Shown here: positions 4,255 through 49,500 of the stretch, piece after piece | Layout: the number at the start of each line of letters is the position of its first letter | Numbering within the stretch: the stretch's first letter is position 1 | Source: Siphonodentalium dalli | Lineage: Eukaryota > Mollusca > Scaphopoda > Gadilida > Siphonodentaliidae | Direction of reading: 5' to 3' | NCBI GenBank assembly: GCA_032622095.1 | Contig: CP136067.1 | Coordinates: 123,413,030-123,477,029 of the forward strand | DNA: 64,000 nucleotides | The notes under the pieces: generated by a model | What the model was told of the DNA's origin: nothing | The model's input: only the letters and a program-made list of their open reading frames with translations | The model's database searches: none | Made by a program: the position numbers and the translations under genes

Positions 4255-5649
4255 TTATATATAGACTTGTTCACTGGCTAAATTGTCCATGAATGGTTTC
4301 ACAATTTCACTAGTGGCAAAGTTGAAGATGAGTCCAAAAGTTATTGATATTGGCAGAGCTGGTAGGGCTTTTCTAAAGATGGCAAGGAGTAATAAAGTGA
4401 AGCACAAGCCTATTAGAATGGCAACAAAGCATGCCAATGTTGTGTTCCAGTCACCATTCGATGAAGCTTTTCCGACTAATACACCATAGAATATAAAGTC
4501 ACCTAGCCCCAATTTTACTCCTCTCTCTTCATTTGTCTGAGATCTATTTGTATCAGATTCTTGATCAGGATTTGTTGATGGAGTGTCATTATTGCCCAGT
4601 GTGTCAGCTGCTGTCCTGGCATTCTGCGATGCTTCTCCATCTGACGTAGTTCGGTCTCTATTACCGGTAGTTGGACGAGAAGCATTTGATTCATTATACT
4701 CCTGAAACCCTCCATCTTCAGATTCGGCATCCTCGGTCTCACCATCCTGTCCACTTCTGGAACTATTCCTTTTACCAGTTGTGTCACCTTCTGAGTCAGC
4801 CATAGTGACAACATTCCACATCATTGTTGAGGAATATATTAGTGCAGGAAATATAGGCTCATTCCTTTCCTGGGCAGTTTCGACAAGCATGCGCAAAGGT
4901 CCCACAGGACAGAGAACAGCGACGAGGTCCCACACCACCATAATACCCAACACAACCCATGTTGTCCAGTCTGGCAAATATTTGATGAATATGAGAGCCA
5001 TCAGAGCACTTATCATGATCAAGTATGCTTGTTGCAAGAATAGTGGTCCCTTCCAGTGAATACATACCATTCCGACAACACCAAAGTTCCACATCAATAG
5101 AGCAACAGTGATATAGTCCATTGGAACATTGTATGCTCTGAGCACTTCCCCGAGATATATGTATGAGAATAAAAATAATAGCATAAGCGAAGACATTATC
5201 AGCCATCCATGAATGAACTTGTAGCAACGGTATTTGTACAAGAGCAATAAAAAAATAGTCATAACGACAATGACTCCCAGTAAAATGAATGCATTGGCCA
5301 ATGACTGCCATACTTTTGTCCCTGTGTCTTCTGTTTCTTCATGGAATGGCGTGTAAATGAGATAACCATCTCCTTTCTTCGTATAGAATGTGATAGAGCT
5401 TATAGTGGCCACTACGACAGCCATGCACAATGTAACTGGGACAAAGAGCATGATAACATGCTTTGCGCCATACAAAAGTGTTTCCTCATCTTCGGATTGG
5501 GCACTTGTTTGACTGGCAGGCCTTCGTCGACGTCGCTGACTGTTATTCCGAGTTGACGTTTGTTCCACTTCGGAATCTGGTATATCACTACCAGCTTCAG
5601 CATCGACAGGGTTTGTCACTGCTTGCTCTGAACTTCCCCTCCGTGGCAT
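4255..5649 (-). CDS. PSEN: Presenilin, gamma-secretase catalytic subunit (intronless)
   Basis: This is the aspartyl protease core of the gamma-secretase complex, which cleaves Notch, APP-like and other type I membrane proteins within the bilayer. The 464-residue product has a polar N-terminus with an RRRRR run and nine expected hydrophobic segments. The TM6 catalytic Asp is at about 241 in WDLVAVLCP, followed by the conserved [20 protein letters not shown] stretch. A hydrophilic loop of about 95 residues follows. The TM7 catalytic Asp is at about 384 in GLGDFIFYG, and PALP is at about 430-433. Human PSEN1 has 467 residues. The frame is open further upstream, but with no ATG before 5649 (ACACAATGC, A at -3), so this is the start. 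The whole coding region is one exon, unlike vertebrate presenilins. The WD in place of human YD also occurs in other invertebrates. Confidence 0.97.
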
Positions 5650-6460
5650 TGTGTTACAAATTTGATTGTGGAATTGACCAGAATGTGGTTTACTTTTATT
5701 CCAGATGGAGTCTCTTGCAGTTCTATTGTCTTGAAATTTGAATCCCTTCGAAACTATTGGAGCAAAATCAGCCAATTAAACTGTCAACTCCAACTGTAAG
5801 GAGGATGTTACGTGATAATTCTCAATAAACGCCTGTAATGTTGTTAAAAGTCATCTTAAACTGTGCGTTAATTGGTAAATTTCTTTCAACGCCGTACAAA
5901 ACCCGGAAGTGATTTCATAGTGTGAATTCGAGTCCCATTTACTTCTTCCTTATTCGTGTTCGGATTAAAAGTAAATGTAATTTCGGGCAGACTCGGCGAA
6001 ACGAAACAAATATAACTACTCCAGACCCAAACTCCAGGCAGCGTTATCTCCCATCGCTCCGCTGAGATACCACTGCCATGATGACAATAATTGGTAAGGA
6101 ATTCTTACGTGTTTTTAGTTCTTATGTTTTAGGATTAAAATTGTCTATGTCTGGCTCAGTTCATATTGTTCTTATCAATACCGAAAGAATTACCATTATT
6201 GCGCAAACTTAAAACAAAATTTGGTGGTCAAAACAAGATAATATGTGACTAAATAGTAGTAAATACAGTTCCGCGACGATATGTAAACATAGATTTAGGC
6301 CTATCGTCTGCAAAGTACACTCATTGTGGCAGTAATATATTGCAGCGATAGCGTAGAGGGCGCTGTCTGGAGTTTGCTCCAGACCATTATGGACTCCTCG
6401 CCCTGTGACCTCTTTGGTCTAAACGGTGCGGAATCTGACGAGGTTTGCGATTGTATTCCA
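5650..6460. promoter_or_regulatory. Presenilin 5' UTR and probable promoter region
   Basis: This lies between the presenilin start and the repeats that begin near 6465. It is less AT-rich than its surroundings and has several CpGs around 5960-6070. No TATA box is convincing. Short plus-strand ATG frames at 6078 and 6389 could suggest divergent transcription, but neither has supporting structure. Confidence 0.35.
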
Positions 6461-6464
6461 GACA

Positions 6465-8297
6465 CAACTAGAGATGGGCTGTCCCAATGGGACTAAAGAT
6501 ACACCCCCATGGCAATCAAGAAAAACTGCTAACACGGTTGCCCAATCGGCCTCTACGGTGTCAGACCGGTTTTCCGAAGACCTATTACTACGAAGGCCCA
6601 CAACTCCGAAGACCCGATTCTCCGACGGCCCACAACTCCGAAGACCAGATTCTCCGACGGCCCATAACTCCGAAGACCCGATTCTCCGACGGCCCATAAC
6701 TCCGAATATCCGATTCTCCGAAAGCCCATAACTCCGAAGGGCCGATTCTCCGAAGACCTATAACTCCGAAGACCTATAACCCCGAAGGGCCGATTCTCCG
6801 AAGACCTATAACTCCGAAGGCCCGATTCTCCGACGGCCCATAACTCCAAAGGTCCGATTCTCCGAAGATTTTGTTTTATCGGGGTATTATCGTTTACTAA
6901 ATAGTGTACAGTCCAGTGGCGAAGCCAAGGGGTCCCAAAATTCCCACTGCCCCCATTAAACCTCTACTTGCTATTTCAGACAATATGGGCCCCTACCAAA
7001 ACATGTCCAATGTCATGTAAACGCCCGGAAATCGTTCATAGGGCATCAAAATATTCAAACTGCCCCCACCTAAATGGGAATCCTGGCCCGCCACTGACTA
7101 TAACGTTACGTTGGCCCATGAGACGCCAGAGTAAAATGTACAGGGGTGAACGGGGAAGAACTTGTCGCCCTGTGCATGTTATATAGGCTACTCTGACATT
7201 CTTGCAGCGTTTCGTTATAATATACCCGGTGCACACCAGTGGCGGAGCCAGGGTTCCCATTTAGGGGTGCACATTAATTAGCATATGTGGGGGATATGTG
7301 GGGGATATATCATGCATATGATATGCCGAAAGCATATCACGAAGGCCTGATTTGGGGAGCGCATACATGGGAGGGGTCGCCCCCAATCGTTGGTCCGGGG
7401 GCTCCCCTGGGCAGGAACACTGTGAATATTTGAATGCCTAGGAGGGATTTCCTGACGTTTACATGACATTGACATGTTTTTTTGGGGGCGGTCTTCCCTA
7501 GGGCCACATTGACCCCGCCACTGGACTGTACACTATTTAATAAGCGATAAAACATGATCTTCGGAGAATCGGCCCTTCGGAGTTATAGACCTTCGGAGTT
7601 ATGGGCGTTCGGAGTTATAGGCCTTCGGAGTTATGGGCTTTCGGAGTTATGGGTCTTCGGAGTTATGGGATTTCGGAGAATCGGGACTTCGGAGTTATGG
7701 GCTTTCGGAGAAACGGGGCGTCGGAGAATCTGACCTTCGGAGAATCTGACCTTCGGAGTTATGGGTCTTCGGAAAAACGCTACGTAACCGCCTCTACGGT
7801 CTCTGCCAAGTTAAAAAAAATTACCGGAAAATGTAGGAATACAAGCTCCGACAAAGTTCTGCAAGTTCTCTCGGTAATAATGTAGGAATACAAGCTCCGA
7901 CAAAGTTCTGCAAGTTCTCTAAGTCATACGTCCAATAACCACAAGTGCACAGGTTCCCTTTGTACTAAATATATGTACCAAATTAAAGAGGAATTGATAG
8001 AAAAATGTAGCAATTATAATTCGGACAAAATTACGCATTTTGAGAAAATTTGCTAAATCGAAAAGGGGAGATAACTCCACCACCCCCCCCCCCCCCCCAT
8101 TATCGCAGGTGCACAGGTTTCCACTCATGGTTACATGGTAATAAATATCTGTGCAAAGTTAAACAATATTGACCGACAAATGTAGCGATATAGCTCGGAT
8201 AAAAATTGTGTCCACGGGCGGACGATGTGCGGATGGACGGGCGGACAATCTGATTCCAACACACCCCCAACAACTCGTTGCGGGGGTATTTATAACT
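6465..8297. repeat. Family F repeat, interrupted by Foldback-like element
   Basis: It begins with TGTCCCAATGGGACTAA and ends with AACTCGTTGCGGGGGTAT, matching the second copy at 54257-54803. Internal modules such as GGTGCACAGGTTCCC and GGGGATAACTCCAC recur in both copies. The copy is split by the Foldback-like insertion at 6560-7789. A C homopolymer lies at about 8082-8098. Small open frames here are not genes. Confidence 0.6.
6560..7789. mobile_element. Foldback-like element with repeat-array inverted ends
   Basis: The left arm (about 6570-6870) is an array of ~10-20-bp units such as GATTCTCCGAAGACC and CATAACTCCGAAGGCCC. The right arm (about 7556-7775) is the same array in reverse complement. 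Inside the arrays a second inverted segment, TAGTGTACAGTCCAGTGGCG, pairs 6901-6920 with about 7516-7535. The 11-bp direct repeat GCCTCTACGGT flanks it at 6549-6559 and 7790-7800, consistent with a target duplication. Long tandem-array arms are characteristic of Foldback (P superfamily) elements. There is no transposase; the many ORFs are repeat translations. Confidence 0.75.
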
Positions 8298-10696: not shown

Positions 10697-12826
10697 TTAA
10701 GTTGTTTTGTCTGTTGTTTCTCCACATACGCTCACATCCAGGCTATTCCACTCGAGAATTGTACGAACAAAGAACGAATTTTCGTACTGTGGTGTTACAG
10801 CTCTGATTTGCTCGAATGAATTTGAGTTAATACACTCTTGTTTTTCGATGATGTTTGTCGTTTCAAAGCCTGGGAATTTTTTCGCCTTAATTTTTCTACC
10901 CTCTTTTGTTTGGTTTTAGTATGTCATTTGAGTGTATAGCTGGCACCAGCCCCTGTGCTACCCTGCTAAAGAGTTTCATCCTGAGCTCGCGTCTTCTTGT
11001 TTGGAGTAGTACCATGTTTTCATTGTCCAACATCTCTGTCACTGCACCCTTTTTTCTGTCTGTATACTTTCCGGTGATAAACCTTGCAGCCCTTCTTTGA
11101 ACCCTCTCTAGTGTCTTGATATCTTCCTTCTTGTACGGGTCCCATACCTCCGCTCCATAATATAATGCTGATCTAACCATGGACTCATAGGCCATCTTCT
11201 TGTGTTTCTTGTCCGCTCTTCTCAGATTCCTTCTCAAGAAACCAAGGGTGCTGTTCGCTCTTTTTGCTATTTTGTTTATATGAGATGACCATGTAAGGTT
11301 GTTGGAAAAATTGAGCCCGAGATATGGATTTTCTTCAACCTCTTGGAGAATGTGATCACTGAGCTGGTACATATGCGAAGTTTTGCTGGTGTTGGAGCAG
11401 GACATAATGTAACATTTCTTCACATTGAATCGCATTCCCCATGTTTCTGCCCATTTTTCTAATGATGTTAAATCTTTCTGTAGTTTGATCTGATCTTGGT
11501 GTTTCTTTATTTGACGATAGAGCAGGCAATCGTCTGCAAATAATTTCACCTCTGATGTTACTGCTAGTGGTAGATCGTTGATGTGACCATGTACCTTTAT
11601 TTTACGTACTTGATGTGACATAAAAATAGTAGTGGTCCTAGTACCGTACCTTGGGGTACTCCTGATTTGACTGGTACGTTTTCGCTGAATTCCCCTTCTA
11701 CTGCTACTCTCATGTGTCGTTGCGTCAGAAACTGATCCAGCCATCTGTGGATTGAGCCTGATATTCCGTAGCTCTGCAGTTTATGAAGTAGTCCTCTGTG
11801 TGGAACCGTATCAAAAGCCTTCGAGACGTCTAAGATGGCGATATCTGTTTGGATGTTTTTGTCGAAAACTTCTAGAAGGTCTTGTGTGACATTAATGAGT
11901 TGGGTGGTACATGAATGTCCGGATCGGAAACCATGGTTTTTGTCAGTCAGTATGTTGTTCTCGTCAAGGTGGTCTCGTATATGTCGGCAGATTATGTGTT
12001 CGAGAAGTTTACAGGGTACTGATGTTAGTGATACCGGCCGGTAAGTTTCTGGTTGGTGTACGTCGCCTTTTTTGTAGATTGGTGAAATATTTGCGCTTCG
12101 CCAGTCGGTCGGTAGTTGTCCCGTATCCAACGACAGTTGGAAAATGGTGGTCAGTGCTGGAGCGATATTATGGGCGCATATTTTGAGAATGGTGTTTGGG
12201 ATGCCGTCTGGACCTGGTGCTTTTGATGTTTTGATGTCCTTCAGCAGTTTACACACTCCATCAGTATCGATTTTGAGTTCAGCGATGTTGTTTTTGGCGA
12301 TGTAAGGCATATCCGGGAGTGTATTTCCAAGGTCATTTGTGAAGACGGATTTGAATTGTTGGTTAAGTAGCTCCGCCTTCTCTTTGCTGTTGTTAGTTAG
12401 TGATGTTCCTTTCTTTATTGGTGGTATGCCTATGTTATCCTGCTTCTTAGCTTTCACGAACCTCCAAAATGGTTTTGAGTTTTTGTTTTTCTCTCCCTCT
12501 TCAATTACTTTGTTGATGTGGTTTTGTTCGGCATTTCTCATCGCCGTGCTCCTGTATTGTCGTTGGTATTCCCTGTATTTCTCCCACTTCCCTGTCTTCT
12601 TCGCTCTACTATACAGTTTTCCCTTCTTCTTCAACATCCGACAGAGTTTCCTGTTCAGCCATGGTAACTTGGTTCTCTTTCTTCTTGGTGTTTTGGGAAC
12701 TCTTTTCTCAACTATTTGTTTCAGTCCATCCTTGAGGTGGGTCCAAAGTAATTCCACTTGTTTCTCTCCACCATCCACTAGCAAGGTAATTTCATTGCTC
12801 AGTTCATCGACCAAAGCCATGGGACC
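10697..12826 (-). pseudogene. Non-LTR retrotransposon ORF2 remnant (Jockey/CR1-like reverse transcriptase)
   Basis: Encodes the linker and reverse transcriptase of a LINE ORF2. Visible motifs in order are APGPDGIPN, SPIYKKGD, YRPVSLTS, HGFRSGHSC, ILDVSKAFDTVPH (motif A), SGVPQGTVLGPLLF (motif B), FADDCLLY (motif C), then a thumb-like region and an ITGKYTDRKKG stretch. The endonuclease half is absent and the 5' edge abuts a palindromic element at 12831, so this is a 5'-truncated copy. The frame is broken twice. The first break is after motif B near 11578-11619. The second is near 10900, beyond which another frame continues SFFVRTILEWNSL to a stop at 10697-10699. The copy is therefore inactive. 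Clade assignment needs a tree. Confidence 0.93.
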
Positions 12827-12830
12827 AATC

Positions 12831-13236
12831 CCGCCAGTGGCGCTGAATAGGTCACTCTCAACGGTTTTCTGTGATAAAGTTACCCAGGTTCCTAAATTTG
12901 TGATAAAGTTACCCAGGTTGGAGAGAATTGTGATAAAGTTACCCAGGTTAAGTAAATCTCACAATATCAACTCGATTTAAAAGTGACAGAGGGAAATATT
13001 GTTCAGTTTTGGCAAGTAATAGCCCTTATTAAGCATAAATTAAGACATATTAGTACTGAAGTTCGTCATTTTGATCGCAAAAATTAATAATTTGTTGCTA
13101 CACATGAAATGTTTTTAACCTGGGTAACTTTATAACAATCCTCTCCAACCTGGGTAACATTATCACAATTTCGGGAACCTGGGTAACTTTATCACAGAAA
13201 ACCGGTGAGAGTGGCCTATTCAGCGCCAGTGGCGGG
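12831..13236. mobile_element. Palindromic element with triple GTGATAAAGTTACCCAGG arms
   Basis: Ends are CCCGCCAGTGGCGCTGAATA and its inverted counterpart at about 13217-13236. Each ~125-bp arm carries three copies of GTGATAAAGTTACCCAGGTT or its complement, separated by short spacers. The ~130-bp middle is AT-rich. No coding capacity. The left end touches the truncated end of the LINE remnant. The terminal CCAGTGGCG also occurs inside the Foldback-like element at 6560-7789. Confidence 0.75.
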
Positions 13237-29362: not shown

Positions 29363-31152
29363 ACCTAATGTCGCTGAACAACTGGTGACGTGATTTGAGG
29401 GACAGTATAGTCTGATGGTCCTTGCTGGACGAGGTTAGATTACAATCTGCACCTCTCTGATGAAGGTTTAGGAGTAACAGATACCCTAACATGAGATTAG
29501 GGTCCTGCAAATATTTGAGATTCGATTTGATTGAGCTGATTCTGTGTTGACATCAAATCGGATGCCCCGATTCAAATATTATTGAATATCTCATTTGTCC
29601 CCATCATTGATGCATTGTTGTTAATTTTGCACAGGGTAGTGATGAAATACATGTATGAGTGATGCATTTGTGGTATATTGTGTTCAATTAATATAGGTTG
29701 GTTGATTTAGCCTATGAATAACGTCAAAACGGGCACATAACAGACACAGTGTCCAAAAGGACCTAGCATTTTATTATTAATCGGTACTTGGTATACTATG
29801 TTATCTGGATGGGTATGTGCCGACCATGGTTGTACATGTAAATAGATTGCTATACTTAGTGTCATGGTCACATGAAACTGTCTGCAGGTTATGCCGTAAT
29901 GGTATCAACTCACATCAAGACTAAGAATAAATGCAAAATAAATGATAATCTTGTGCACAAACATATTCTGATACAGTTTATAAGTTTATTTACTAAACCT
30001 TAATGACAATGTGTATAAATTATATATTGCACATGCAATAAAATCTCTTAATGCCTAATAGGAACAAACCCGCAAAAGAATTTGAGGACCTACATTATGC
30101 GCCGTTGGTTAGACAATTTTGATTCAATTCTATATCAACATCGGCCTACAGATTCGATATCGGATTTTGAATCTGCGGAAAAGTGTCAATGTGATGAAAT
30201 TCTGAACAGAACATACCAATTAATTCTCGGTATGCAGGAGGAGTTCCTTGTCAGATGAAGTTAGAAGCATTCAATCTAAACCTCTTTAATCAGGTCAGGC
30301 ACATCCTGAATATCACTTGGTATATGACCATTGCCGTCTTGTGAATTTATAAAAGAGGGATAATCCAAAATCATATTTCACACAAATTATTCAAAATTAG
30401 TCTTTCACTAATTTGGTATCATACAGATATTTTGTCCAGGAGAATGAATAATTGATAAGCAACTCAATTAGCATTCAATTAGTTTAAATTTTGTTATGAA
30501 GGAGCAGTTGAGTCATCCTGTTATTGTCATCTATAAAGACATATGTTAGTAATATTATTGAATAACAAAGCTGGTGCAAAAGATTGCACAACAAATTTTG
30601 TCGGAAGGCTGTTCATTCGCTGCGATATTGTTAAGAATAAAATTTGGCTGTGCACTGCTATGTGCCGTCTTCTATTCCCAACGCAAATAAAGGAAACATG
30701 AATACTTTATGGTCATATACCACTATAATAGTGGAAATCAGACGTGCCTGACCTGTTAATGAAGGCCTATTAGTAACAGATACACTACCATGTGATGCAA
30801 CTCTGAAGAGAACGTACCAATTTATTCTAGTTATGCCAGAGGCTATGATATATGAGGTTTAAATCGGTATAACTAAGCCTTAGGGTGGGTTCTCTAACAT
30901 GCTCCTATATCTGTGCCGTAATAACCATTTCTCTAAGAATGACGACATCTTCTCTGATGCAGGCTCAACGCTGTTCTGGTTCAATTCTATCTCGTGCTTG
31001 AGACTGGAAAGGACAGATAATTGATCTTTGTAATTCACTCATTTAACACCTGACAAGTAAATCAAATTTCACTGGTGCTGATTGGTCAGTCCCCCAGGTG
31101 AGAACAGGTGTGGAGAGTAAACATCTGAATTGTTATGTAATTCCCCCCTGAG
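29363..31152. other. Spacer with diverged repeats, no confident gene
   Basis: Two related blocks occur at about 30190-30245 and 30805-30850 (GAACATACCAATTAATTCT versus GAACGTACCAATTTATTCT). An inverted pair lies at about 30290-30335 and 30705-30765 (GGTCAGGCAC / GTGCCTGACC), so a decayed element of roughly 0.6 kb is likely. A TAGGGTCCTGC-type end at about 29501 resembles 61133. Last exon(s) of the YTH-nucleotidyltransferase gene may be in this stretch but were not found. Confidence 0.35.
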
Positions 31153-33137: not shown

Positions 33138-36100
33138 CTGTCAATGGTAGCAGAGACATCTGAGTAGGTAGCATCACCGTTCCGTATTCTCATGAGAAAA
33201 CTAAATTCATTCGAGTCACAATCCCTGTAAACTCTCAGATCTTGACCCCGAATGATGTCACTAGAATGAAATAATGACAAGTTAAAGGGGCAGCCCTGAT
33301 CTTATTATCTGAAATGGGTTAAAATTAGTAAAAACAAAAACATTAGAAAGGTTTAAGGGAATCGACTCACAGGGTCAAGTCAATAGGTTGGTAGGCAACT
33401 GGTTGAATACACTAAGGTCAAGTCTATAGGTTGGTAGGTGGCTGGTTGAATACACTGAACTGATGCTACTGTTTATAAATAATTTGTATTGCAAATTCTG
33501 TATTGTGAAGGAAATGCTATATTCAGAAAATACTGCTATAAAATATTCAAGATATCATTCATACACTAAAGTGTCTGATCATGCATAGACCCCCCCAAGT
33601 TATATTACAAAGAGAAGGAAAACAATGGCTTAATTCACAGAGGGCAGATGGGGGCACTCGCACTTCCTGCCTCCACTAATTAAGGAGGGAAGAGAGGGGT
33701 GCAAAGCGCTGTTTCAATCATCCCTCGTTTGATTCCGGCCCCTATGAATTCTTCAGATCAAACAGTTCAACTTGACTTTTATTTTCACCAACAAACAAGT
33801 TATGAAGGCCTCTGAAAGATTGAAATGCAAGCTACCACCCCAAAAACCAATGTTTTGATTTGAATCTATATACTAACGTGGCATTCTGTAAGAGCCGTAC
33901 TATGACATAAACCAGTTTAGATATATTGTGTGGCAACTCCTCGACATCTGGATTGGATAGCCTCCATTTCTTGAGTTGCTTTAAGCCGTGGCTACCCAGC
34001 GCATCTCTCATGTATTTATCCAAACATGCCCTGTAGAAGGTTAAAGTAACTCAATGTTCATACATTAAATTAAACTTATTAATCGTCACATTCTGGGGAC
34101 CAAAATAAGTTGAGTAACCCTTTCTATACTAAATCATCATTGATGAGTAGTTATCCATAGGAAATGTTCAGATAATAAGTTTAACCCATTCTATACTAAA
34201 TCATCATTGATGAGTAGTTATCCCATAGGACATGTTCAGATAATAAGTTGTTTGTTGAACTTATTATCTGAACATTTCCATGATCTAAATAGGACTCCTG
34301 TACTTTTATTATCTGTCATCTGCTTTCTGTTTTTCTGAAAACCCCTCCAGATGAATAATAGACCATTCCGATGTACACTGTTTTAACTGTGTGTGAGAAT
34401 CCATTTAGTATAGAAAGGGTTAACAAACGCCAACCCCATGTCCCCTGCCTATAAAGTTGGCTTTTTTGGGGGTGTTGGCTTTTTAAAAAAAGAAAAGAAA
34501 TGAAATGCTGGCAAAAATCATTATTGTATAATATAAATGAAATTGGGAAAGAAAACATGGCTATAATTTGAATTGATTCTGTCAATAGTTTGCTGGAAAC
34601 ATACTTTGTGAACACAATTGCAGCACACCTTTGAGAAGGTTCTTGATTATCGCAAAGTCTATAATTATTATGAGTCCTAACATTAGCTTAACCCTTGCTA
34701 TACTATATACTATATATATGAGTAGTTAACAATTACGAAATATTCATATAATAAGTTCAACAAATATAGTCATTTGTTTAACTTATTACCTGAACATATC
34801 CCTCCAATGAATAGGATTCCTTCTGCACTTTCTGTTATCTGTTGTCTGCTTTTATGTACTGAACATCCCTACAGATGAATAATAGACCCTTCCAATGTAT
34901 ACATTTGTAACTGACTGGGAGAATCCATTTCATTTGCAGAATGAGGTCCCCAGAGGGTGATTTTAGTGACGCTATCCCACATAGCATCACTAAATTCACC
35001 CTCTGGGGATCTCATTCTGCTAAGGCCTCATCTGCTCTGAAAGTTTCTTTATTATAAAATTTCTATAGAAACTTCTTCACATAGATTCTATTTCTTTTTT
35101 AGGTTAGTTTTTCTATATCCCCAAATTGGTATATGACACATTGCATAATTGAGGTTCCCAATGGGTGTACATCACAATATCCACCATTTAGGTACTTCAA
35201 TCTGAGTCTATGTCTCCCATAGCAGATGAGGCCATGCAGAATGAGGTCGCCAGAGGGTGAATTTGGTGATGCTAGCACGCTATGCGGCATAGCGTCACTA
35301 AATTCACCCTCTGTGGGACCTCATTCAAATGACAGGCACACTAAACTCAGGCTTGTACTTCGAATGCAATGGTACCTGGTTAGAAACAGTCTCCTGTTCT
35401 CTACGAGATCCGCCCAGCTAGAGGAGCTGTGAACTATGGTGGATTGATGTAAGAACAGACCTTCCACACACCGGGGGTCGCCTGAGCGAAGAAGCTCACA
35501 GAATCGAGACAGTTCATGTATTGTGTAATCACACAACTCACTTTCTCGGTTCTGAAATGGAGAAATCATCTTTCTCACTGTATGCCATGTCTGCAAAGCA
35601 TTCAACAAACTAGCCCAAGTTTCCTTGGATGCAAAGCAGCTACTGATATCGGTAGAGCGAGATATCTCAATCTACAAATATCACTAGCTGGTTTACATCC
35701 AAGGGAACTTGGCCTATCAAAAAACATGTAGTGGGGTAGACCTTAGTACAGTAATGCCCCTTAACCACAGCAGAATTATGGGTAACTTTTCAGGATTTAG
35801 TCGGAAATATGGCTTGCTGCCATTCATCGGAAAGCTCTCAGTGAGAGCTTTCCGAAGAATGCTTTTCAAAATATTTTCAAAGCTCACATGCTTTTCAAAA
35901 TATTTTGGCCTGAGAAATGGGAAATTGACTTTGCGTGGCCTAATGGACTAAGGGGAAATAAGTAGTTAACCATAAAATTTGGGTTACATCCCATACAAGC
36001 CTTGAAATAGGATGTCTGTCATTTGCAGAATGAGGTCACCAGAGGGTGAATTTAGTGATGCTACCCCGCATAGCGGGCTAGCATCATCAAATTCATCCTC

Positions 36101-38797
36101 TGGGGACCTCATTCTGCTTACACCTCAGCAGAATGAGGTTCCCAGAGGGTGAATTTGGTAATATTAGCCCGCTATGCAGGGTAGCATCACTAAATTCACC
36201 CTCTGGGGACCTCATTCTGCAAATGACAGACACCCTATTTCAAGGCTTGATCCCAGAAAAGACTCTCTTTCCGTGATATTGTCGTATATCTTGAAGCTGA
36301 TGTCATTGTTGGAGATAGTATGTGCATGTGTTAAACACAATCGCGGTGGATTTACATCGTGTTGACAAACTAGTAACTACATAATTATACATCTTAATTT
36401 TGTGGCGACCAGGAATTTTAGTATTTCTTAGACAAGCATTTCAACAATGTCTATGTTGCCATGTTTTGTTGCTTGGTATTGTGAGCAATGGTTTTGATAG
36501 CGGTTGGCCGAATGTAAATATATACATACATGTTTTGGCGTAATTGTCTATTCAACCGCTCATAATATATGTAAATTCAGCAACATAGCCCTCTTGTATT
36601 TCATATATGGACTGTGGTTTAGATTAAACTTGGGAGTCGTACTATTTTTCGCTCCGTTTAAATTTGCGCACCATTGGATGCGCGAAAAATAGTACTGCGC
36701 GAAATTAAATACGAGTAAGGTAATTCGCAGTAATGCGAGTTTGGAATCAAAAGAGTTAATTAAATGGAAGAATTCATTGTTAAATGGAAGGGTTAACCAA
36801 CCTTGATGGTTTGTTTTGGTGGATTGAATCCCAGAACATCTTCAGCTTTAGCCTCATACACAAGAAACATGTCTGTATCACTCGCTGGAGTGCTGAGATT
36901 ATATCTATAAAACAATAATATTTATAGAATTTGTAGCTAGTGCCAAGCCTTAAAATAATTTGTATTTGACTGTCTGACATGTGGTCAGACACCAAACAGA
37001 CATGGTCTGACATTTCAAAATGAGGCCTGACATGTCTTTTTTATCACGCGAAATAATGCCAAGTGAAACTAATAATGATGTATTTATAATATCCCTCAAT
37101 TATGTTCCTCTTCTCAATTGTCACATTTTTACTATAAATAATACAAATCTGCCCACCCTGGCCACCACATCAAACATGCTTGCCAATTTCACGCTCAATT
37201 CTAAGGCCTATCAGTACAAACATATGACTGCATGGAACGCAGGACAGTAGTAGGTTATAACTCGACTGGGCGGAAAAACTCGTTCCATAAATTTTCCAAT
37301 TCCAATATTTTGTAGACATCCAAATTCTAATAATCATACATCTAAAAATCCCAGATTTTGGCAAAACAAATATTTAAAAGCTATTCTCCAATAGAATAAA
37401 TTTCATTTAACAGCACATTACCAGTGATATTTTCCTTAAAAATATGTCAATATTTCAACCTGACATTATGTCAGACAGTTTCAAAGCAGAGCCTGACAAC
37501 CTATAAAAATTTGAATTTGGCGTCTGACAATTGTCCATGTCAGACATCTTATTTGGAGCCTTGGCCATCACATAAACTCTTTATGTATGTGAGAGTGATT
37601 TTAGCATCTATTGGGTGAGGGTTAGCTGAGCTTTGCCAAAATTTCCTTGTTCTGATAATTAGTTTAAATGTGAAAAACAGGCATGTTTTATCGTTATAAA
37701 ACATATATAGTTTATAGATGTGTCATAACGAAAACATTATTTCCCGTTTTTCACATTTTGTATCATTTAGCACGGAATTAGGGACGATAAAACATTCTTA
37801 TTCATAATGACATCATTCAGGCCGGTTGGCACTGTACCCAATTACCTGAGCAATTTGCATTTATTAGATGCGCACTCCCACCCCATGAAAAAGTTGGATG
37901 TAAATCTAGCAATTTATATTGGCCTTATGAGCGTTTTAATGGTCAGATAATGACTTCAAAATTGTGCATCCGATCATGTGGCGCACGGGTAGTAATTTCA
38001 AAAACTGCTATTCCTGCCTCATATTTGCTTTTATCAGCGACATAATGCGAGCAATGGATGATAATTTCTATAACATAATAAACCCACAAAGGCCAAGCTG
38101 GGTACCAAAAACACAAAAAAGTGATGACAATGACCCCTCAGCATTAATAATGAACTAACCTTTGACTTCCAAATGGACAAGCAAGGACAACATTCCCGAG
38201 ATCCCTCTCGACCTTGTCAACAATATTCTTCCACAATGAACTAAAGTCTGCTGGGTTATCATCAGCAAAGAACGGATCTGGTTGATTCTCTAAACATTTA
38301 GCTTCCTTTCTGAGTAAATCATCCGTGAGTTCAGTGCAATAATCATCTATCAGTCCACACAGTAAAAGACCCGGCTCGGCAGATATCTCCTGCCAATTTC
38401 TCGACTTATTTAGACATACGTTGTCCTCAAGAATTATGTTTTCAGTTCTTGAAAACGGAAGACATTTCTCCCCAAATTTATCCAGAAAACACCGCTTCCA
38501 TTCCACGTCAAAATAATACCACACAGAACTTGAATCATAACTAGCAGAAGTTTGTTCAATGTTTGTCTCTGTAGCACTCACGACAGGTTTCCCAGTCATC
38601 TGACAGTAACCATGGTAACCGTGACAATTGTTTACACTGAATATGAGCACAACCAGACCATTGTCGAATGCATCAGATAGAATATCTTTAGGGTGTGGTG
38701 GTGTTTCCCTGTCCCTGCATGCCCACACATTTGTTCGCCGACATTTATGCAAGGAATCCATGTTGACACATTTTGCGATAAAGTATCGAGTTGCCAT
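33138..38797 (-). CDS. YTH domain fused to RlaP-type minimal nucleotidyltransferase (at least 5 coding exons, 3' end not found)
   Basis: Coding exons in transcript order are 38797-38160, 36904-36802, 35623-35376, 34030-33878 and 33260-33138; phases agree at every join. The exon 3 acceptor at 35623 is chosen by frame and is the weakest junction. Residues 3-150 read as a YTH domain, an N6-methyladenosine reader: YFIAKC, TNVWACRD with cage Trp25, LIFSVNNCHGYHGYCQM, VWYYFDVEW with Trp93, CLPFSRTENI, LNKSRNWQEI. From about 185 follows a pol-beta-type nucleotidyltransferase core: ACPFGSQRYNLSTPASDTDM, with GS 210-211 and Asp222/Asp224. Next come DYTIHELSRFCELLRSGDPR (Asp279, Glu284) and a helical tail with PHNISKLVYVIVRLLQNA. 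The layout matches PF10127/RlaP enzymes. The GS motif is in the same exon as YTH, so the fusion is not an assembly or exon-chaining artefact. Start AGAATGG at 38797 has an in-frame stop upstream and an acceptor at 38811, implying a 5' UTR exon. At least 422 residues. Substrate is unknown. Confidence 0.85.
34113..34423. mobile_element. Family D MITE copy D6 with internal duplication
   Basis: The right end is TAGTATAGAAAGGGTTAA. The left ~67 bp (AACCCTTTCTATACTAAATC and following) is repeated in tandem at about 34115-34181 and 34182-34248. Central hairpin AATAAGTTG/TTTGTTGAACTTATT. Intron 3 of the YTH-nucleotidyltransferase gene. Confidence 0.75.
34688..34930. mobile_element. Family D MITE copy D7, right end lost
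   Basis: TTAACCCTTGCTATAC on the left, then the family D hairpin (AAGTTCAACAAATATAGTCA). The right end stops at GAGAATCCATTT, where the last ~17 bp of the family are replaced by the start of a family B element. Intron 3 of the YTH-nucleotidyltransferase gene. Confidence 0.7.
34929..35355. mobile_element. Family B MITE copy B3, left TIR lost
   Basis: Hairpins at about 34935-35030 and 35238-35330 flank the family B middle. The right outer end (GACAGGCACACTAAACTCAG) is present. The left outer TIR is missing and begins directly at CATTTGCAGAATGAGG after D7. The right end stops about 20 bp from the exon 3 splice donor of the YTH-nucleotidyltransferase gene. Confidence 0.75.
35748..35857. mobile_element. 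Family C MITE half copy C4
   Basis: The left end TACAGTAATGCCCC, arm and central GAAAGCTCTCAGTGAGAGCT are present. The right arm stops soon after the centre, so this copy no longer forms the full palindrome. Intron 2 of the YTH-nucleotidyltransferase gene. Confidence 0.75.
35997..36248. mobile_element. Family B MITE copy B4, hairpins only
   Basis: Outer TIRs CAAGCCTTGAAATAGGATGT and its complement enclose two hairpins (about 36025-36115 and 36127-36225) directly joined by TTACACCTCAG. The ~200-300-bp middle of other copies is missing. Intron 2 of the YTH-nucleotidyltransferase gene. Confidence 0.8.
36943..37565. mobile_element. MITE with GCCAAGCCTTAAAATAA-type ends and subterminal hairpin
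   Basis: The left end GCCAAGCCTTAAAATAATTT and right end AATAAGATG-like ...TTTGGAGCCTTGGC are inverted, with GTCTGACATG / CATGTCAGAC blocks repeated near both. The middle is AT-rich with no credible gene. Intron 1 of the YTH-nucleotidyltransferase gene, 39 bp upstream of the exon 2 acceptor. Confidence 0.6.
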
Positions 38798-38866: not shown

Positions 38867-39512
38867 CCTGCAAATTGTGTTTCCGTCATTTGCAGAATGA
38901 GGTCTCTGGACCGTTGCACAGCGGGCTAGCTTACCAAATTCACGATCTGGGGACCTCATTCTGCTTAGGACTAATCTTCTGGGAAGTACAGTAATGCCCT
39001 AAATAATCGACTCCATAACCACATCAGAATTATAGGTAATTTTTCAGGATTTCGTCTGATTTCGTCGTAAATATGGCTTGTTGTCATTCATTGGAAAGCT
39101 CCAAGAGCTTTCCGATGAATGGCAACAAGCCATATTTCCAACTAAATCCTGAAAAATTACCCATAATTATGCTGTGGTTAAGGAGTCGATTATTTAGGGC
39201 ATTACTGTATCTCTATTCTCAAATTAACAATGTTTTAGTTACTTTTTCCCTTTCTAGGAAGATTCTATATCCCCTAATTTGCAGAAGATATAATGCATAA
39301 TGAAGTGACTAATGGGTGAACATCACCAACTTCAACTGGGGAACTGATCCTAGGTCTCTCATAGCAGATGAGGCCTAAGCAGAATGAAGTCCCCAAGGGT
39401 GAAATTAGTGATGGTAGCCCACTGTTCTGGGTAGCTATGCGGGATAGCATCACTGAATTCATCTACTGGGAACCTCATTATGCAAATGACAGACACACTA
39501 TTTACAGGCTTG
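38867..39512. mobile_element. Family B MITE copy B5, interrupted by family C
   Basis: Left end CAAGCCTGCAAATTGTGTTT with a shortened hairpin (38893-38975). Right hairpin at about 39383-39478 and right end ACACACTATTTACAGGCTTG. The internal sequence is split by C5 at 38999-39207. It lies just upstream of the coding part of the YTH-nucleotidyltransferase gene. Confidence 0.85.
38997..39209. mobile_element. Family C palindromic MITE copy C5 nested in B5
   Basis: TACAGTAATGCCCTAAATAA to GGGCATTACTGTA. The TA at both ends is single in the uninterrupted family B copy B1 (near 658-662), showing that the TA was duplicated on insertion. Confidence 0.9.
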
Positions 39513-39648
39513 ACAGAATACAAAAATTATCTCATGAGTGGCTGTAACAAAATTCACTGATGGCCGGGCTTCTAAAATGTTATATGTGCTGTTTTGGTGC
39601 AAAAAGTTTGTTTCGATATTTGGAAACTACATATCTTATTACATGAAA

Positions 39649-39906
39649 TTAACCCTTTCTATACTAAATACTCAGTGATGAGTAGTTATACCTCAGGAAA
39701 TGTTCAGATAATAAGTTCAACAAACATATGGTCGTTTGTTGAACTTATTATCTGAACATTTCTCTCAATAAATACGACTCATTCTGTACTTGTACTATCT
39801 GTTGTCTGCTTATATCACCAGACATCCCTCCATGTGAATAATAGGCCATTCCAATGTGAACTTTTATAACTGAATGGAAGAATCCATTTAGTATAGAAAG
39901 GGTTAA
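39649..39906. mobile_element. Family D MITE copy D8 (TTAA target, complete)
   Basis: TTAACCCTTTCTATACTAAA to TTTAGTATAGAAAGGGTTAA. The centre is AATAAGTTCAACAAACATAT / ATGGTCGTTTGTTGAACTTATT. One of the best preserved copies and a good family reference. Confidence 0.85.
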
Positions 39907-39960
39907 AAGCACATGAAATGAATGCTCCTGTTTTTTCCTTGAGAATCATGCTCTGTCCTA

Positions 39961-40209
39961 TACAGTAATGCTCTAAATAATCGACTCCTTAACCACAGCA
40001 GAATTATGGATAATTTTTCAGGATTTAGTCGGAAATATGGCTTGTTGCCATTCATCGGAAAGCTCTCTGAAATATGGCTTGTTACCATACATCGGAAAGC
40101 TCTCTCTCTTTCCGATGAATGGCAACAAGCCATATTTCCGACTAAATCCTGAAAAATTACCCATAATTCTGCTGTGGTTAAGGAGTCGATTATTTAGAGC
40201 ATTACTGTA
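39961..40209. mobile_element. Family C palindromic MITE copy C6
   Basis: TACAGTAATGCTCTAAATAA to GAGCATTACTGTA. The centre carries an extra ~35-bp partial copy of the ATATGGCTTGTTACCATACA arm, which explains the three overlapping ORFs read from it. Confidence 0.85.
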
Positions 40210-40835
40210 TATCATGAATGCCCCTGACACTATGATCATCAATTGTAAAATTTATGTCAATTCTTCGAAATGGTTCATGGTCAAATACACCTGATTAGAC
40301 AGCTTTAAAGGGGCATAAACGCAGGATGTTTCTCGTCATTCTGATGGCAACAACAAATTATATAGCAGAAAACCTCAAAACTCATTTTGTACATTTTTAT
40401 CTAAAATGTTGTAGAATAAATTAGCAGAAATATCAATATGTTATGTTATTATTTTATGAAAATTATGACAAATGATCACTATATGGCAATGTGTCGGTTG
40501 ATTACAAGGAAATTTCAAGAGATTATTATTAATATTTAGGTGAAAACAACATTTTGAAGCCCAGTGAAAACATACCAAACTTAAACCAGTGGCTTGCAAC
40601 CGCATGTGCACTTTGTGGTAGCCATATTAATGTATTGATACAAAACATATCTACAGTAAACAAATATTGTAAATTGGTACGAAGATACTGTTTCAGCATA
40701 AACATGTGTTTGACTGGCTCACGTCAAGTACTCCAATGCTAATCACTATCCCAGTGCTCACAATCACAAACAAAAAATAAGCTAAAGTTGCCGATTTTGG
40801 GTATGGTGAACATTCTACCTGTAACTAATGGTCTG

Positions 40836-43575: not shown

Positions 43576-46500
43576 TTAAAATGGATAGATTCGACGAGCA
43601 TTTTCTGATGTGATAGAACAAACAGCTCTGGTAGGTATGTTCAAAATCCTCCCAACAGCTGCAGCAACTTCTCCAGCCAGCTTCGGTGTCGATACACACA
43701 GTCGTCCTCCAAGGTGAGCCCCATCAGTTTCAATCAAAAGCCTCTCTTTTGGTACAATATTAAGGGCTTTCTGTTGTTCTGAGTCAAAGCTTTTAACAAG
43801 TGCTGAAAATCCGAAATAGCAGTTTGGAAACTTTGTCCATTCAAGTAGAGTTCTGGCCCTTTGAGAACAGCAATGCAGATGAACTGGCTGCCTTTTACGC
43901 CCCATGTCCTCCAAAATTTCTCGTGCAAGGTCACTCACACTGTCACCATATATGTCATCACCTTGAATATGAAGAATGATAGGAGTTTTTGGGTTACTCA
44001 AGCTTATTAGCCTGCGAAACAATTCCTCCTGTCGGGCTGGAGTTGATTGTAAACAGCTATGGTCAATACCGATATCGCCCAATGCCACAACCGAGGGATT
44101 TAGTAAGAACCCTTCAATCTGCTGGAAAATGTCCTCATTTACCACATGAAGGTATTTCGGGTGAAGTCCTATGGCAACTTTCCACCTGCAGCCAAGATCC
44201 AATATCTTTGGGTATGAATTTGGATCAGAAAAAACGGCGATCCCTCCACTAACCTTACAAGGAACTTCACCTTCTGGGCAGCTCTCAAATACTTCGTCCC
44301 AAATAGCTTCGTCCTTGTGGCCACAGAGTCGCTCAAGTGTTTGGTCTATACGAAAATGACAATCAATCACTTCGTAATTCACATTCAACTCACTGCATCC
44401 ATATGAATTTTCACAACATGATGGGTGAGATTGCACGTCTTCATTGCCTTCAGGTATTAAATGCTTCTCCTTGTACCACCGAATCCAGTTCACTTGCCGA
44501 GGTACAGAATTATTGTCCCGACATTTTTCCATCAAAGATATTCTAGCATCCTCGCTAATTGCTGACAAAATTGGCATAAGAGCTCTCCAATGAATCAAAC
44601 AGGCATACGAATTGACTGGCTTTAGGCTAAATTTTGCACCACGAACCGGCCTAGTGAAACCAAATCGAGAAATAACACAAAGCCGATTCATGCAACTGAT
44701 GTAGTTATCGCCGGTGACCTCTGACCCTGTACGTAGTTGATTGTTATCATTGATGTAGTTTAAAGCTTGTTGGAAATGATCCCTACCAACTGTATCCAGT
44801 GGGATGTTCAGGAAAACAGATATAACATTTTGAAGACCAAGGAAATAGTTATTGCACAGTTTGTTTGAAACATTGTGACGAGTTGGCTCCCACAAAAATT
44901 CGGGAATATGGTTCATCAAAACATGACGCTTCATTCTTTTAACGCTTTTCGAACAAATGGAACAGAGATGGGTCCCAGACTTCCGCTTTATTCTCTTGCG
45001 CATTCGACTTGATACTTTAACACATTCCAATGAAGTTTTATTGTTTGTTTGCTCGGATGCCTTTGGTTTTTTATTCTGAAGAACGGGAATCTCAGCGTCG
45101 GAAGCAGAGTCAACCATACTTTCAGAATCAGACATTCTCACCTCGTTGTCATTGGGAAATGTTTGTTCCAAATGCAACGGATTCAAAATTGAATCAGAAA
45201 TGCCAGAAGGATCGCTTGGTGAGATTCCTGCAGTATCAGCATTTTTATCTGCGAAGACAGAAAGATGACGAGATGAATCGTGTGTTTCAAGGGATCTGCC
45301 AGGCGTAGACATTATGACTGTAAAGTTCTCATAAGCTTTGTTTAGTGATTCATTAGGAGATGGTGATTGCCTGTTGACCTTGAAATTCTGTTCACCTTTC
45401 CATAAAACATCGTTTACAGATGGCATTCTCAAACTGACTTTGACATTTCCATTATTTTTGTCTTGTGATTCTTTAGGAGCGGACGATTGCCTATTTCCCT
45501 TGAAATTCTCTTTACATAGTGCATCATTAGCTGACAGAAATCTTGAATTGGCTTTCACTTTAGACACTGTGACTGTAAAATTCTCAAAACCTTCATTTGC
45601 TGATTCATTAGGAGATTGTGATTGCCTGTTGGCCTCAACATTCTGTTCAACTTTGCCTAGCAATTCATTAGGAGATGGTGATTTCCTAGGTCTGATGGTC
45701 TTCACATTCTGCTCCCCTTTGCCTAGCACATCATTAGGAGATGGTGATGGCCTCTTTGCCTGAACAATCTCTTCAACTCTGCCCAGCATTTCATTAGGAG
45801 ATGGTGATTTCCTAGGACTGACTGTCTTCACATTCTGTTCAACTCTGCCTAGCAATTCATTAGGAGATGGTGATTTCCTAGGTCTGACGGTCTTCACAAT
45901 CTCTTCAACTTTGCCTAGCATTTCATTAGGAGATGGTGACTTCCTAGGTCTGACAGTCTTCACAATCTCTTCAACTTTGCCTTGCAATTCATTAGATGGT
46001 GATTTCCTAGGTCTGACGGTCTTCACAATCTCTTCAACTTTGCCTAGCATTTCATTAGGAGATGGTGATTTCCTAGGTCTGACGGTCTTCACAATCTCTT
46101 CAACTTTGCCTAGCAATTCATTAGGAGATGGTGATTTCCTAGGTCCAACGGTCTTCACAATCTCTTCAACTTTGCCTAGCAATTCATTAGGAGATGGTGA
46201 TTTCCTAGGTCTGACGGTCTTCACAATCTCTTCAACTTTGCCTAGCAATTCATTAGGAGATGGTGATTTCCTAGGTCTGACGGTCTTCACAATCTCTTCA
46301 ACTTTGCCTAGCAATTCATTAGGAGATGGTGATTTCCTAGGACTGACGGTCTTCACATTCTGCTCCCCTTTTCCTAGCACATCATTAGGAGATAGTGATT
46401 GCCTCTTTGCCTGAACAATCTTTTCAACTTTGCCTAGCAATTCATTAGGAGATGGTGATTTCCTAGACCTGTTGGTCTTCACATTCTGTTCGACTCTGCC

Positions 46501-49500
46501 CAGCAATTCATTAGATGGTGATTGTCTAGGCCTGTTGGTCTTCACATTCTGTTCAACTTTTCCTAGCAATTCATTAGGAGATGGTGATTGCCTAGGCCTG
46601 TTGATCTTCACATTCTGTTCAACTTTGCCTAGCACTTCATTATGGGATGGTGATTGCCTGTTGGTCTTCACATTCTGTTTGACTCTGCCCAGCAATTCAT
46701 TAGATGGTGATTTCCTAGACCTGTTGGTCTTCACATTTCCATTATATTTGTCTTGTGAATCATTAGATGATGATTTCTTGTTAACTTTAGCATTTAGCTC
46801 TTCATTATGTAGTAATCCCTTTGGAGGAGACGATGACTGCCTGTTGATTTTAACATTCTGATCTTCATTATGTAGCGTTTCCTTTATAAGTGATTGTCTG
46901 TTGACCTTAAAATCCTCTTCACATTTGCATGGTGCATCATTCGAAGAAATCAATCTCAAGTTGAAATTGACATTTCCACTATCTTTGTTTCCTACATCAG
47001 TAACCGACGACAGTTTCACGTCAACTTCGTTATTTCTATTTTCTTTGCCCAGTAATTTATCAGCAGACATAGGGTTATACCATTTAAACCAGTTATCATC
47101 TCGTGTACCAGAGTTGAGATCACGGCAAGTTTCCAGCAGTTTAGAGTGAGCTTCCTCGCCAATCTCTGACAATAGTGGTATGATCGCCCTCCAGTAAATC
47201 AAGACAGCAAGCGAGTTGATTGGGTGAAGACTAAACTTTGCTCCACCCTCTGGTTTGGTGAACCCAAAATCAGAATTTTCACACAAGTAATCCATGAAGG
47301 TTTTGTAATTTTCACCCACAATCTGTGATGCGGGCGGAATAAGCTTCCCATCATTGATGCGGTCAACTGATTTCTGGAAGTGATAGCTGGTCACTGTTTC
47401 GAAAGGAATGCATAGAAAGACAGCGACAAGGTGTTGGAGACCGGAAATGTATCTTTTACAAAGTTCATATGAATCCACATGTGACACAGGTTCCCATAAA
47501 AATTCAGGGAAATGACATTTCATCACATGCCATCTAATGTAAGAAACCTTCTGAAGACAGATAGCGCATGGTGAACATAGAATCTTCTTAGGCTTTTTAC
47601 GTTTGGTGTTTACTTCCGTAGTAGTATTCATGCTGTAAGTATTAAGTTCTGAATAAACAGGAATTCCCTCCAACTCCATCTTAACAGCAGGGTAGCTTTT
47701 TTGTCGAGTCACATCTCTTGACTTGGCATCTGACATATTGCTTGAAATCTGTTTCAATTCAGCTATTCCCCCTTCTGCACATAACTTTGAAACGTGGTGC
47801 TTGCTCTCAATTTTTGGGGCTGATTGACACAATGACTGTATCATTCTCTTATGACCTCTTACAAATATTTTACAGTCTTTTCCAGCCTGAGGTGCAGAAG
47901 GTAACATTTTGCATGTTTCTTCAGAATATCTTGCCTTCTTTGAAGAGATATTAACAGGTGACGAGGCTGAGTGTTTAGCACTCATTGAATCACCTGAAAA
48001 GAGAATTAAAACAGCAGAATTGAGAAATTAATTACTGTTGTGTAAGAGACATAGATAGAACGGCACAAGTGTGTGAAAATGATAACATTAGTGCACAAGT
48101 TTGTTCTGACATGATGGTAAAATGACTGCAATAACATTAAACAATTTAACATGTTCACAAAACTGTGTTGTTCTATATTTATTGCACACACTGAAGATTG
48201 TAGTTTGTACTATACTAAAATTTAGGTCTATATTTAATTACAAAAACGTGTGCTCAGTGTAGACTATATCTAATAATTTTGTGAAGAAATTGTCTGTTAA
48301 GGTTGACATCGCAAATGACGTTGTTAACATAATTGGTTTGTATTGTTCAAGAACAATACACAATTGTTTATTGAACATTTTGAAATCTTCTGTATTTTGC
48401 TGTATTTCGCACAAATAAGCAGGGTTCGCGCTGTCATTTGACAAATTTGACAATGGCAAAAATAATTCACATTTGGCAAAAAATAATTCACATTTGGCAA
48501 GTCACTTTTGATTCCTCAAGGAAGTTTATTAATATTTGTCAATCAATACCACTCATTTCAGGAAACACTTTCATTAATAATGGTATTAGTGGTGATTTAC
48601 ACATGTATAAGATTATGAAAAGTTAACACCTCTATCAAGATTCAATTAATCTGATATCTTTAGTATCAACAGGTGGATGGATTGCAAGTGTGTCTGGTTG
48701 TGGTGTGTACATAGCTAATCCTCTTTGTTTCGATGTGCCTTTCTGATGAAGAAACCCTTCTACAATTGCATTGTTATGTTGTTGGTTTATTGTTCTATGA
48801 TAAACCCAAGTATAGAGGCAAGAATTATTAATAACTAACTGCTTTCCTAACGATATCAAAGGTTGCTCAAGCAGAGATTGTTGATAAAGTCAAAATAAAA
48901 GAAACAATGTTGTAGAAACTGATAGCATTTGGCAATTCATAACAGCATTTGGCAAAAAATATTTTCATTTGGCAAAAGTTAATGCAAAGTTAATTCTGAT
49001 GTTTGTCCACTCAGTCTTACTTTACTGCCCACTACAGAGAAATATACACGTGTTAATAACTAACTGCTTTCCTAACGATATCAAAGGTTGCTCAAGCAGA
49101 GATTGTTGATAAAGTCAAAATAAAAGAAACAATGTTGTAGAAACTGATAGCATTTGGCAATTCATAACAGCATTTGGCAAAAAATATTTTCATTTGGCAA
49201 AAGTTAATGCAAAGTTAATTCTGATGTTTGTCCACTCAGTCTTACTTTACTGCCCACTACAGAGAAATATACACGTGTAGTTCCCATATTAATCCACTGA
49301 TTTACCCATAAGTATGTCTAATTTCACCAAAACACAATTATAACTAACAATGAAGTTAGGTTAACTCTACTGATTCCTGTCACACATTGGTATGTTTAAG
49401 GGCTAGTATGAAAATTTCTATATCCCCTTTTGGGGAACATTTATCTAACTGCAACTTTTTTTATAATCCACTGGTGAGTGTATAGTAAAATTGCGTCTTT

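Follow-up and report, generated by a model that had tools for sequence, protein, structure and literature searches.

A 64,000-nucleotide stretch of DNA from the scaphopod Siphonodentalium dalli, here called the window, carries on its minus strand a single-copy gene for a protein of 438 residues in which an N-terminal YTH domain is fused to a C-terminal, full-length RlaP-type pol-beta nucleotidyltransferase. We hold this gene and its architecture with high confidence. YTH and RlaP are known families, and there is no second case of their combination in the collections searched.

The features of the gene are collected in Table 1. An AG acceptor stands before each of exons 2–5, a GT donor follows all five of exons 1–5, the phases agree, and GC content is 0.41–0.49 in the exons and 0.34–0.40 in the introns. 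The motifs quoted in the original prediction were all found where it had placed them, and its five exons hold up in their borders and phases. The splicing of exons 1–5 and of the tentative exon 6 is predicted from these signals. An in-frame TAA just upstream of the ATG indicates that exon 1 encodes the N-terminus, unless an acceptor lying further 3′ is used. Exon 1 by itself contains the entire YTH domain and, as originally described, runs from it straight into the GS motif of the nucleotidyltransferase. The fusion is therefore independent of exon joining, because the open frame of exon 1 continues from the YTH domain into the beginning of RlaP.

Table 1. Position and content of the features assigned to the YTH–RlaP gene.
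Feature	Position	Strand	Content
Exon 1	38160..38797	minus	ATG at 38797; YTH domain 38348-38791, linker, first RlaP strand, GS motif
Exon 2	36802..36904	minus	YNLSTPASDTD, predicted catalytic Asp pair D222 and D224
Exon 3	35376..35551	minus	Predicted third catalytic Asp D255 (CDYTIHEL), DPRCVE, LVENRRLFL
Exon 4	33878..34030	minus	Helical RlaP segment, invariant K344 and R351 (SKLVYVIVRLL)
Exon 5	33138..33260	minus	LMRIRNGDATYSDV segment, C-terminal half of RlaP
Exon 6 (tentative)	30880..31003	minus	Last helices, TAA stop; pyrimidine-rich acceptor, right phase
AATAAA, possible polyadenylation signal	30821..30826	minus	About 50 bases beyond the exon 6 stop

To score the exons we used an RlaP profile of our own. 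Open frames of 100 residues or more from fetched loci numbered 3,872, and 133 of them matched the enzyme half at E <1e-4; of these, 130 had a length of 190 residues or more, and removal of near-duplicates left 85. The score of this profile is favoured, since the relatives were picked by similarity to the window protein, whereas Pfam and PHROG carry no such bias. The full protein scored 122.8 bits, falling to 115.4 without exon 6, to 87.0 without exons 5–6 and to 80.0 without exons 4–6, which corresponds to gains of 7 bits for exon 4, 28 for exon 5 and 7.4 for exon 6 (42.8 jointly). The score without exon 1 was 110.6 bits, and the RlaP piece in exon 1 alone is too short to score (-1.3 bits). 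The maximum over 500 shuffles of residues 151–438 was 6.2 bits. Of all GT-AG exons of 30–260 bases that stay open and preserve the frame (91), exon 2 as proposed ranked first, the runner-up reaching 105.6 bits.

The last exon is less certain. The original prediction, whose five exons are borne out, had the gene end at 33138; this end is improbable, and exon 6 is likely the last exon that was missed. One base of exon 6 completes the codon split across the exon 5/6 junction. When the candidate last exons within 20 kb were scored (371 in all), exon 6 came third, two others reaching 123.2 bits and further ones lying within 1–2 bits, so that its score gain is not specific, because unrelated candidates gain equally. 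The LPxxPD motif of the relatives is not kept in it. We retained exon 6 as tentative on account of its acceptor site, matching phase and stop codon, and of the AATAAA close by, which is the sole AATAAA or ATTAAA within about 180 bases 3′ of the stop. A KIF9 domain considered for exons 5–6 scored 18.7–20 bits, below the cut-off of 31.9, and in the genome search exon 6 reached 20.1 bits (E 0.8) against 48.8–64.6 for three KIF9 stretches elsewhere. This assignment was dropped as helical similarity, because exon 5 gives 28 bits to RlaP.

The six exons run without stop or frameshift and keep the residues that are invariant among the relatives, and the YTH domain shares one open exon with the start of RlaP. 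These observations make it very unlikely that the gene is decayed, or that two adjacent genes have been read as one, even though the gene is single-copy and predicted from sequence, its exon 6 is uncertain, and a codon log-odds test trained on two window genes was uninformative, leaving the coding frame unseparated from the other frames.

Several other features lie around the gene, where ten larger open frames were scanned. Palindromic MITE-like elements occur in several copies in the introns and 5′ flank (34930-36250 and 38959-40213), the longest arms measuring 123 nt with 93% complementarity and 8 nt between them; all repeats listed (25 of the 34 inverted pairs, and 18 direct families) lie clear of the exons. 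Just upstream, at 43579-48027 on the minus strand, a TatD-type nuclease gene contributes an open exon of 1,483 residues, in which a 66-base repeat encoding a 22-residue unit such as RPRKSPSPNELLGKVEEIVKTV occurs 17 times (45638-46735). An intron-free presenilin in one open frame lies at 4258-5775 on the minus strand (571 bits), matches to reverse transcriptase at 10899-12958 on the same strand fall into two frames and probably represent one decayed element, and a 32-base unit is repeated in tandem about 8–9 times at 6573-6868. The frames identified here and the spliced RLIG1 and YTH reader genes elsewhere in the assembly mark the genome as that of an animal.

Profile searches of the joined exons gave significant matches to both families that had been predicted. 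The Pfam RlaP family (PF10127) matched the five-exon protein with E 2.2e-12 and 47.7 bits (cut-off 23), and residues 202–348 of the six-exon protein with E 1.9e-12 and 47.8 bits, over profile positions 19–154 of 249. Such short coverage is common in the family: 7 of the 10 clear relatives scanned also stop before profile position 160. PHROG 388, ‘nucleotidyltransferase’, matched the enzyme half with 102.5 bits. The enzyme had been called minimal; it is instead a full-length RlaP domain. NTP_transf_2 stayed below its cut-off (17.8–19.6 bits against 21), as did PF22600, the MTPAP-like poly(A)/terminal nucleotidyltransferase family (15.7–16.9 bits against 27). The enzyme half had no match in NCBIfam and nothing better than E 0.26 in a sequence search of the PDB. 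With tblastn it matched 429 phage records at E ≤0.01 (best 1e-9), 14 of which cover at least 80% of the query, and 7 plasmid records. We considered, and rejected, that the domain had been acquired recently from a phage or bacterium: in a FastTree tree of the window domain and the 85 relatives (300 columns) it had no supported sister (0.55, 0.47). Its branch in that tree is long, at 1.79 against a median of 0.39.

The residues expected of the active site are conserved. In the 85 relatives, G210, D222 and D224 are present in 100%, S221 in 98%, and S211 and D255 in 96%, while K344 and R351 are invariant in the 84 relatives that cover that place. The window protein retains all eight, and Q324 is also kept. 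Its catalytic core is thus, to judge by these residues, intact, in keeping with the earlier claim that the GS, SDxD and third Asp motifs are all present. Several other family positions have changed. Position 215 is Asn (Gly in 96% of relatives, Asn in 4%), the Gly that follows the Asp pair in 92% of relatives is Leu (position 227), residues 272–274 read DPR where relatives usually have NPN, and residues 319–321 read SHG where they usually have GYA (the GYAxxQ signature). Position 348 is Val, against His in 85% of relatives (the KHAxHLVR signature), and the LPxxPD stretch near the C-terminus (411–417) is lost. These changes, which lie outside the predicted active site, would count against an explanation by RNA nucleotidyl transfer. 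On balance, we consider it moderately probable that the chemistry of the enzyme half is nucleotidyl transfer to RNA 3′ ends.

The neighbourhoods of RlaP genes bear on this chemistry. RlaP, the RNA-ligase-associating nucleotidyltransferase, is described as predicted to restore lost nucleotides ahead of ligation (PMC7824862). In Gordonia phage Daredevil, RlaP adjoins an annotated RNA ligase. We scanned 68 of 224 frames neighbouring phage, viral and bacterial RlaPs and counted among the 25 commonest of 88 families: RlaP itself was found in 12/68, RtcR in 3/68 and the poly(A)/CCA polymerase head in 3/68. RecA-type matches, which are not RNA repair, were as frequent (6/68). The neighbourhoods partly support RNA repair. 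One RlaP frame, at 4874-6895 of a viral contig (L143), has a LAGLIDADG match, perhaps from an intein or homing endonuclease.

The fold comparison was made on an AlphaFold model, not of the window protein itself, but of a viral-contig relative (L148) that shares 55 of 230 aligned residues with it. The model, from 27 sequences, had a pLDDT of 85 and a pTM of 0.81. Its best solved match was HalB of the Hailong defence system (Z 9.7, 173 aligned residues, rmsd 4.2), with low TM-scores of 0.39–0.40 by query. The next solved folds were DrrA, a nucleotidyltransferase-like protein, GlnE, ANT and AadA, at Z 8.3–6.9, a range that according to the comparison tool possibly reflects a mere common arrangement; MNT antitoxins and Tam41 were also among the matches. 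Compared with predicted viral proteins, the same model matched phage enzymes, proteins of Klosneuvirus, Terrestrivirus and Yasminevirus, and baculovirus HE65, and some of the giant-virus matches are long proteins named nucleases. The substrates of HalB and of the aminoglycoside nucleotidyltransferases differ from RNA, which, as far as the model goes, may count against RNA chemistry. Hailong is reported to work through an oligodeoxyadenylate signal (PMC12265719), and together with the rank of HalB among the solved folds this raises another explanation, in which the product of the enzyme half is a nucleotide signal, or its target a protein or small molecule, and the YTH half is a sensor through which marked or foreign RNA triggers the messenger. 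We consider this explanation improbable, since the model is that of a relative with limited identity, its TM-scores against HalB are low, function cannot be read from a shared fold, and RNA repair is part of the RlaP neighbourhood.

The YTH fold seen earlier in exon 1 passes the Pfam cut-off of 22.1 for PF04146. Residues 3–150 matched with E 4.4e-16 and 59.3 bits in the five-exon protein and with E 5.2e-16 and 59 bits in the six-exon protein, over profile positions 1–134 of 135. Among solved YTH domains the best match was YTHDF1, at a modest E 8.7e-5, and identity to the YTHDF-type domain of the same genome is 28–30%. A single-sequence structure model of exon 1 was unusable (pLDDT 34.6). The m6A cage is described as W411, W465 and W470 in YTHDF1 and W377/W428/L439 in YTHDC1; of these three positions, the first two are reported to be absolutely conserved as Trp among the human YTH domains, and the third to be Trp, Tyr or Leu (PMC6112328). 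By alignment, W25 of the window protein corresponds to W411, and W93 stands at the W470 place to within one residue. A count backwards from FDVEW assigns Y87 to W465, which replaces the second cage Trp by Tyr. S15 aligns with N367 of YTHDC1, which puts Ser at an m6A-contact position; N367 corresponds to D401 of YTHDF1. Binding of m6A is uncertain because of the Tyr at one cage Trp and the Ser at one contact residue; the YTH half is compatible with m6A binding, but this binding would be weaker than in known readers.

The same two substitutions, next to the retained W25 and W93, are what would be expected if the YTH half had lost selectivity for m6A and become a general RNA-binding module in an RNA end-processing enzyme unrelated to m6A. 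A parallel is fission yeast Mmi1, which has Ala at the N367 place and is described as being without m6A pocket contacts (PMC6112328). Y87, however, still puts an aromatic ring near the W465 place, and the domain scores well above the YTH cut-off. Such a loss of selectivity is therefore unlikely, in our estimate. An m6A-guided version of RNA 3′-end nucleotidyl transfer is possible, and we put it forward tentatively.

The protein resembles several known systems in part. With the RlaP of phages and bacteria it shares the domain over its length, the catalytic motifs and the invariant Lys and Arg, but the window gene is spliced, belongs to an animal, is fused to YTH and has no ligase gene among the window frames scanned (ten larger open frames). 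With the YTH m6A readers (YTHDF, YTHDC1, YTHDC2 and Mmi1) it shares a whole-length YTH domain and, by alignment, the cage residues W25 and W93, and it differs from them in its catalytic partner domain and in the Tyr and Ser at two m6A-contact places. In the CPSF30-YTH of plants and apicomplexa, a YTH domain is likewise joined to a protein of RNA 3′-end formation, and m6A reading is reported to be coupled to polyadenylation (PMC8313237). The CPSF30 YTH domain (5zuu) was the sixth solved match of our YTH half. Here, in contrast, the partner is itself a nucleotidyltransferase, and the CCCH zinc finger of CPSF30-YTH is absent among the six Pfam matches of the 438-residue protein at E ≤10. The CoCoNuT type IV restriction proteins, which are conflict proteins predicted to target RNA, also have a YTH-like module, but combine it with a GTPase, coiled coils and nucleases, and the portions of that account available to us describe no RlaP fusion (PMC11090510).

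The fusion was searched for in this assembly, which is the only animal genome covered, and in phages, plasmids and viral contigs. Exon 1 had no match in phages or plasmids, nor in viral contigs in a search sensitive to close relatives only, and the YTHDF-type domain of the same genome had no match in viral contigs either. A readable GS motif was present in 129 of the 133 RlaP frames from the fetched loci, and only 3 frames had at least 130 residues before it; Pfam found no YTH domain in these 3 or in 7 more frames, which together are the ten longest or most N-terminally extended. Among the papers listed by a literature search none describes a YTH–RlaP fusion, and the RNA-repair survey in which RlaP was named may treat eukaryotic RlaPs.

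Genome searches covered the 2.23 Gb assembly of nine contigs, with the window on contig C7. Of the ten matches to the five-exon protein, five are its own exons, one is a weak hit of YTHDF type (E 0.002) and the remainder have E ≥0.7; by this search the window gene is the sole YTH–RlaP fusion in the assembly. The corresponding search with PF10127 is uninformative on other RlaP genes, because it found none and missed this gene too. Five YTH matches were found, the window gene included; two of them (L001 and L002) resemble YTHDF1, and another (L004) looks YTHDC1-like to us. The YTHDF-type stretch of L002 (G000:C6:226361311-226361568) is 97% identical over 105 residues to L001 on another contig and is perhaps a recent partial copy of it. 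MT-A70, the family of m6A writers, matched six stretches. RLIG1 also matched six stretches, on the same contig as the window (C7:172.80-172.82 Mb), and the RNA ligase family PF09414 had no match in an exon-wise search, which can miss genes. Thus m6A writers, other YTH readers and a possible sealing partner exist in this genome.

Together, these results suggest a mechanism in which the YTH half would bind RNA, perhaps m6A-bearing, and would bring the nucleotidyltransferase to the 3′ end of the bound RNA or of a cleaved fragment. The RlaP half may then extend the nearby 3′ end, template-free, by a single nucleotide or a few, and a separate ligase, for which RLIG1 is the candidate in this genome, may close the break once the end has been rebuilt. 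Cleaved rRNA is a good first candidate substrate, since RLIG1 is reported to keep 28S rRNA intact during oxidative stress (PMC13244148). The outcome could be repair, tailing or defence, and the link to foreign RNA raised in the original prediction is hypothetical. YTH-guided RNA nucleotidyl transfer in general, whether repair or tailing, is the likeliest of the explanations considered, at about even odds. It is possible, though less likely than not, that animals of this lineage have an m6A-guided RNA end-restoring enzyme by which marked cleaved rRNA, snRNA, mRNA or viral RNA would be rebuilt or tailed, and possibly sealed by RLIG1.

In the accounts consulted (among them PMC7824862), the RlaP of phages and bacteria is a nucleotidyltransferase with a predicted role in RNA repair, for which no tested substrate is given, and human 5′-3′ RNA ligation repair is reported to be only beginning to be described, through RLIG1/C12orf29 (PMC9931718). 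The linkage of a YTH domain to an RlaP-type enzyme offers a direct guess at the substrate of the enzyme. The fusion could direct RNA repair or tailing to marked RNAs; if so, the reading of RNA methylation and RNA repair would be united in one polypeptide, and YTH proteins would gain a catalytic effector.
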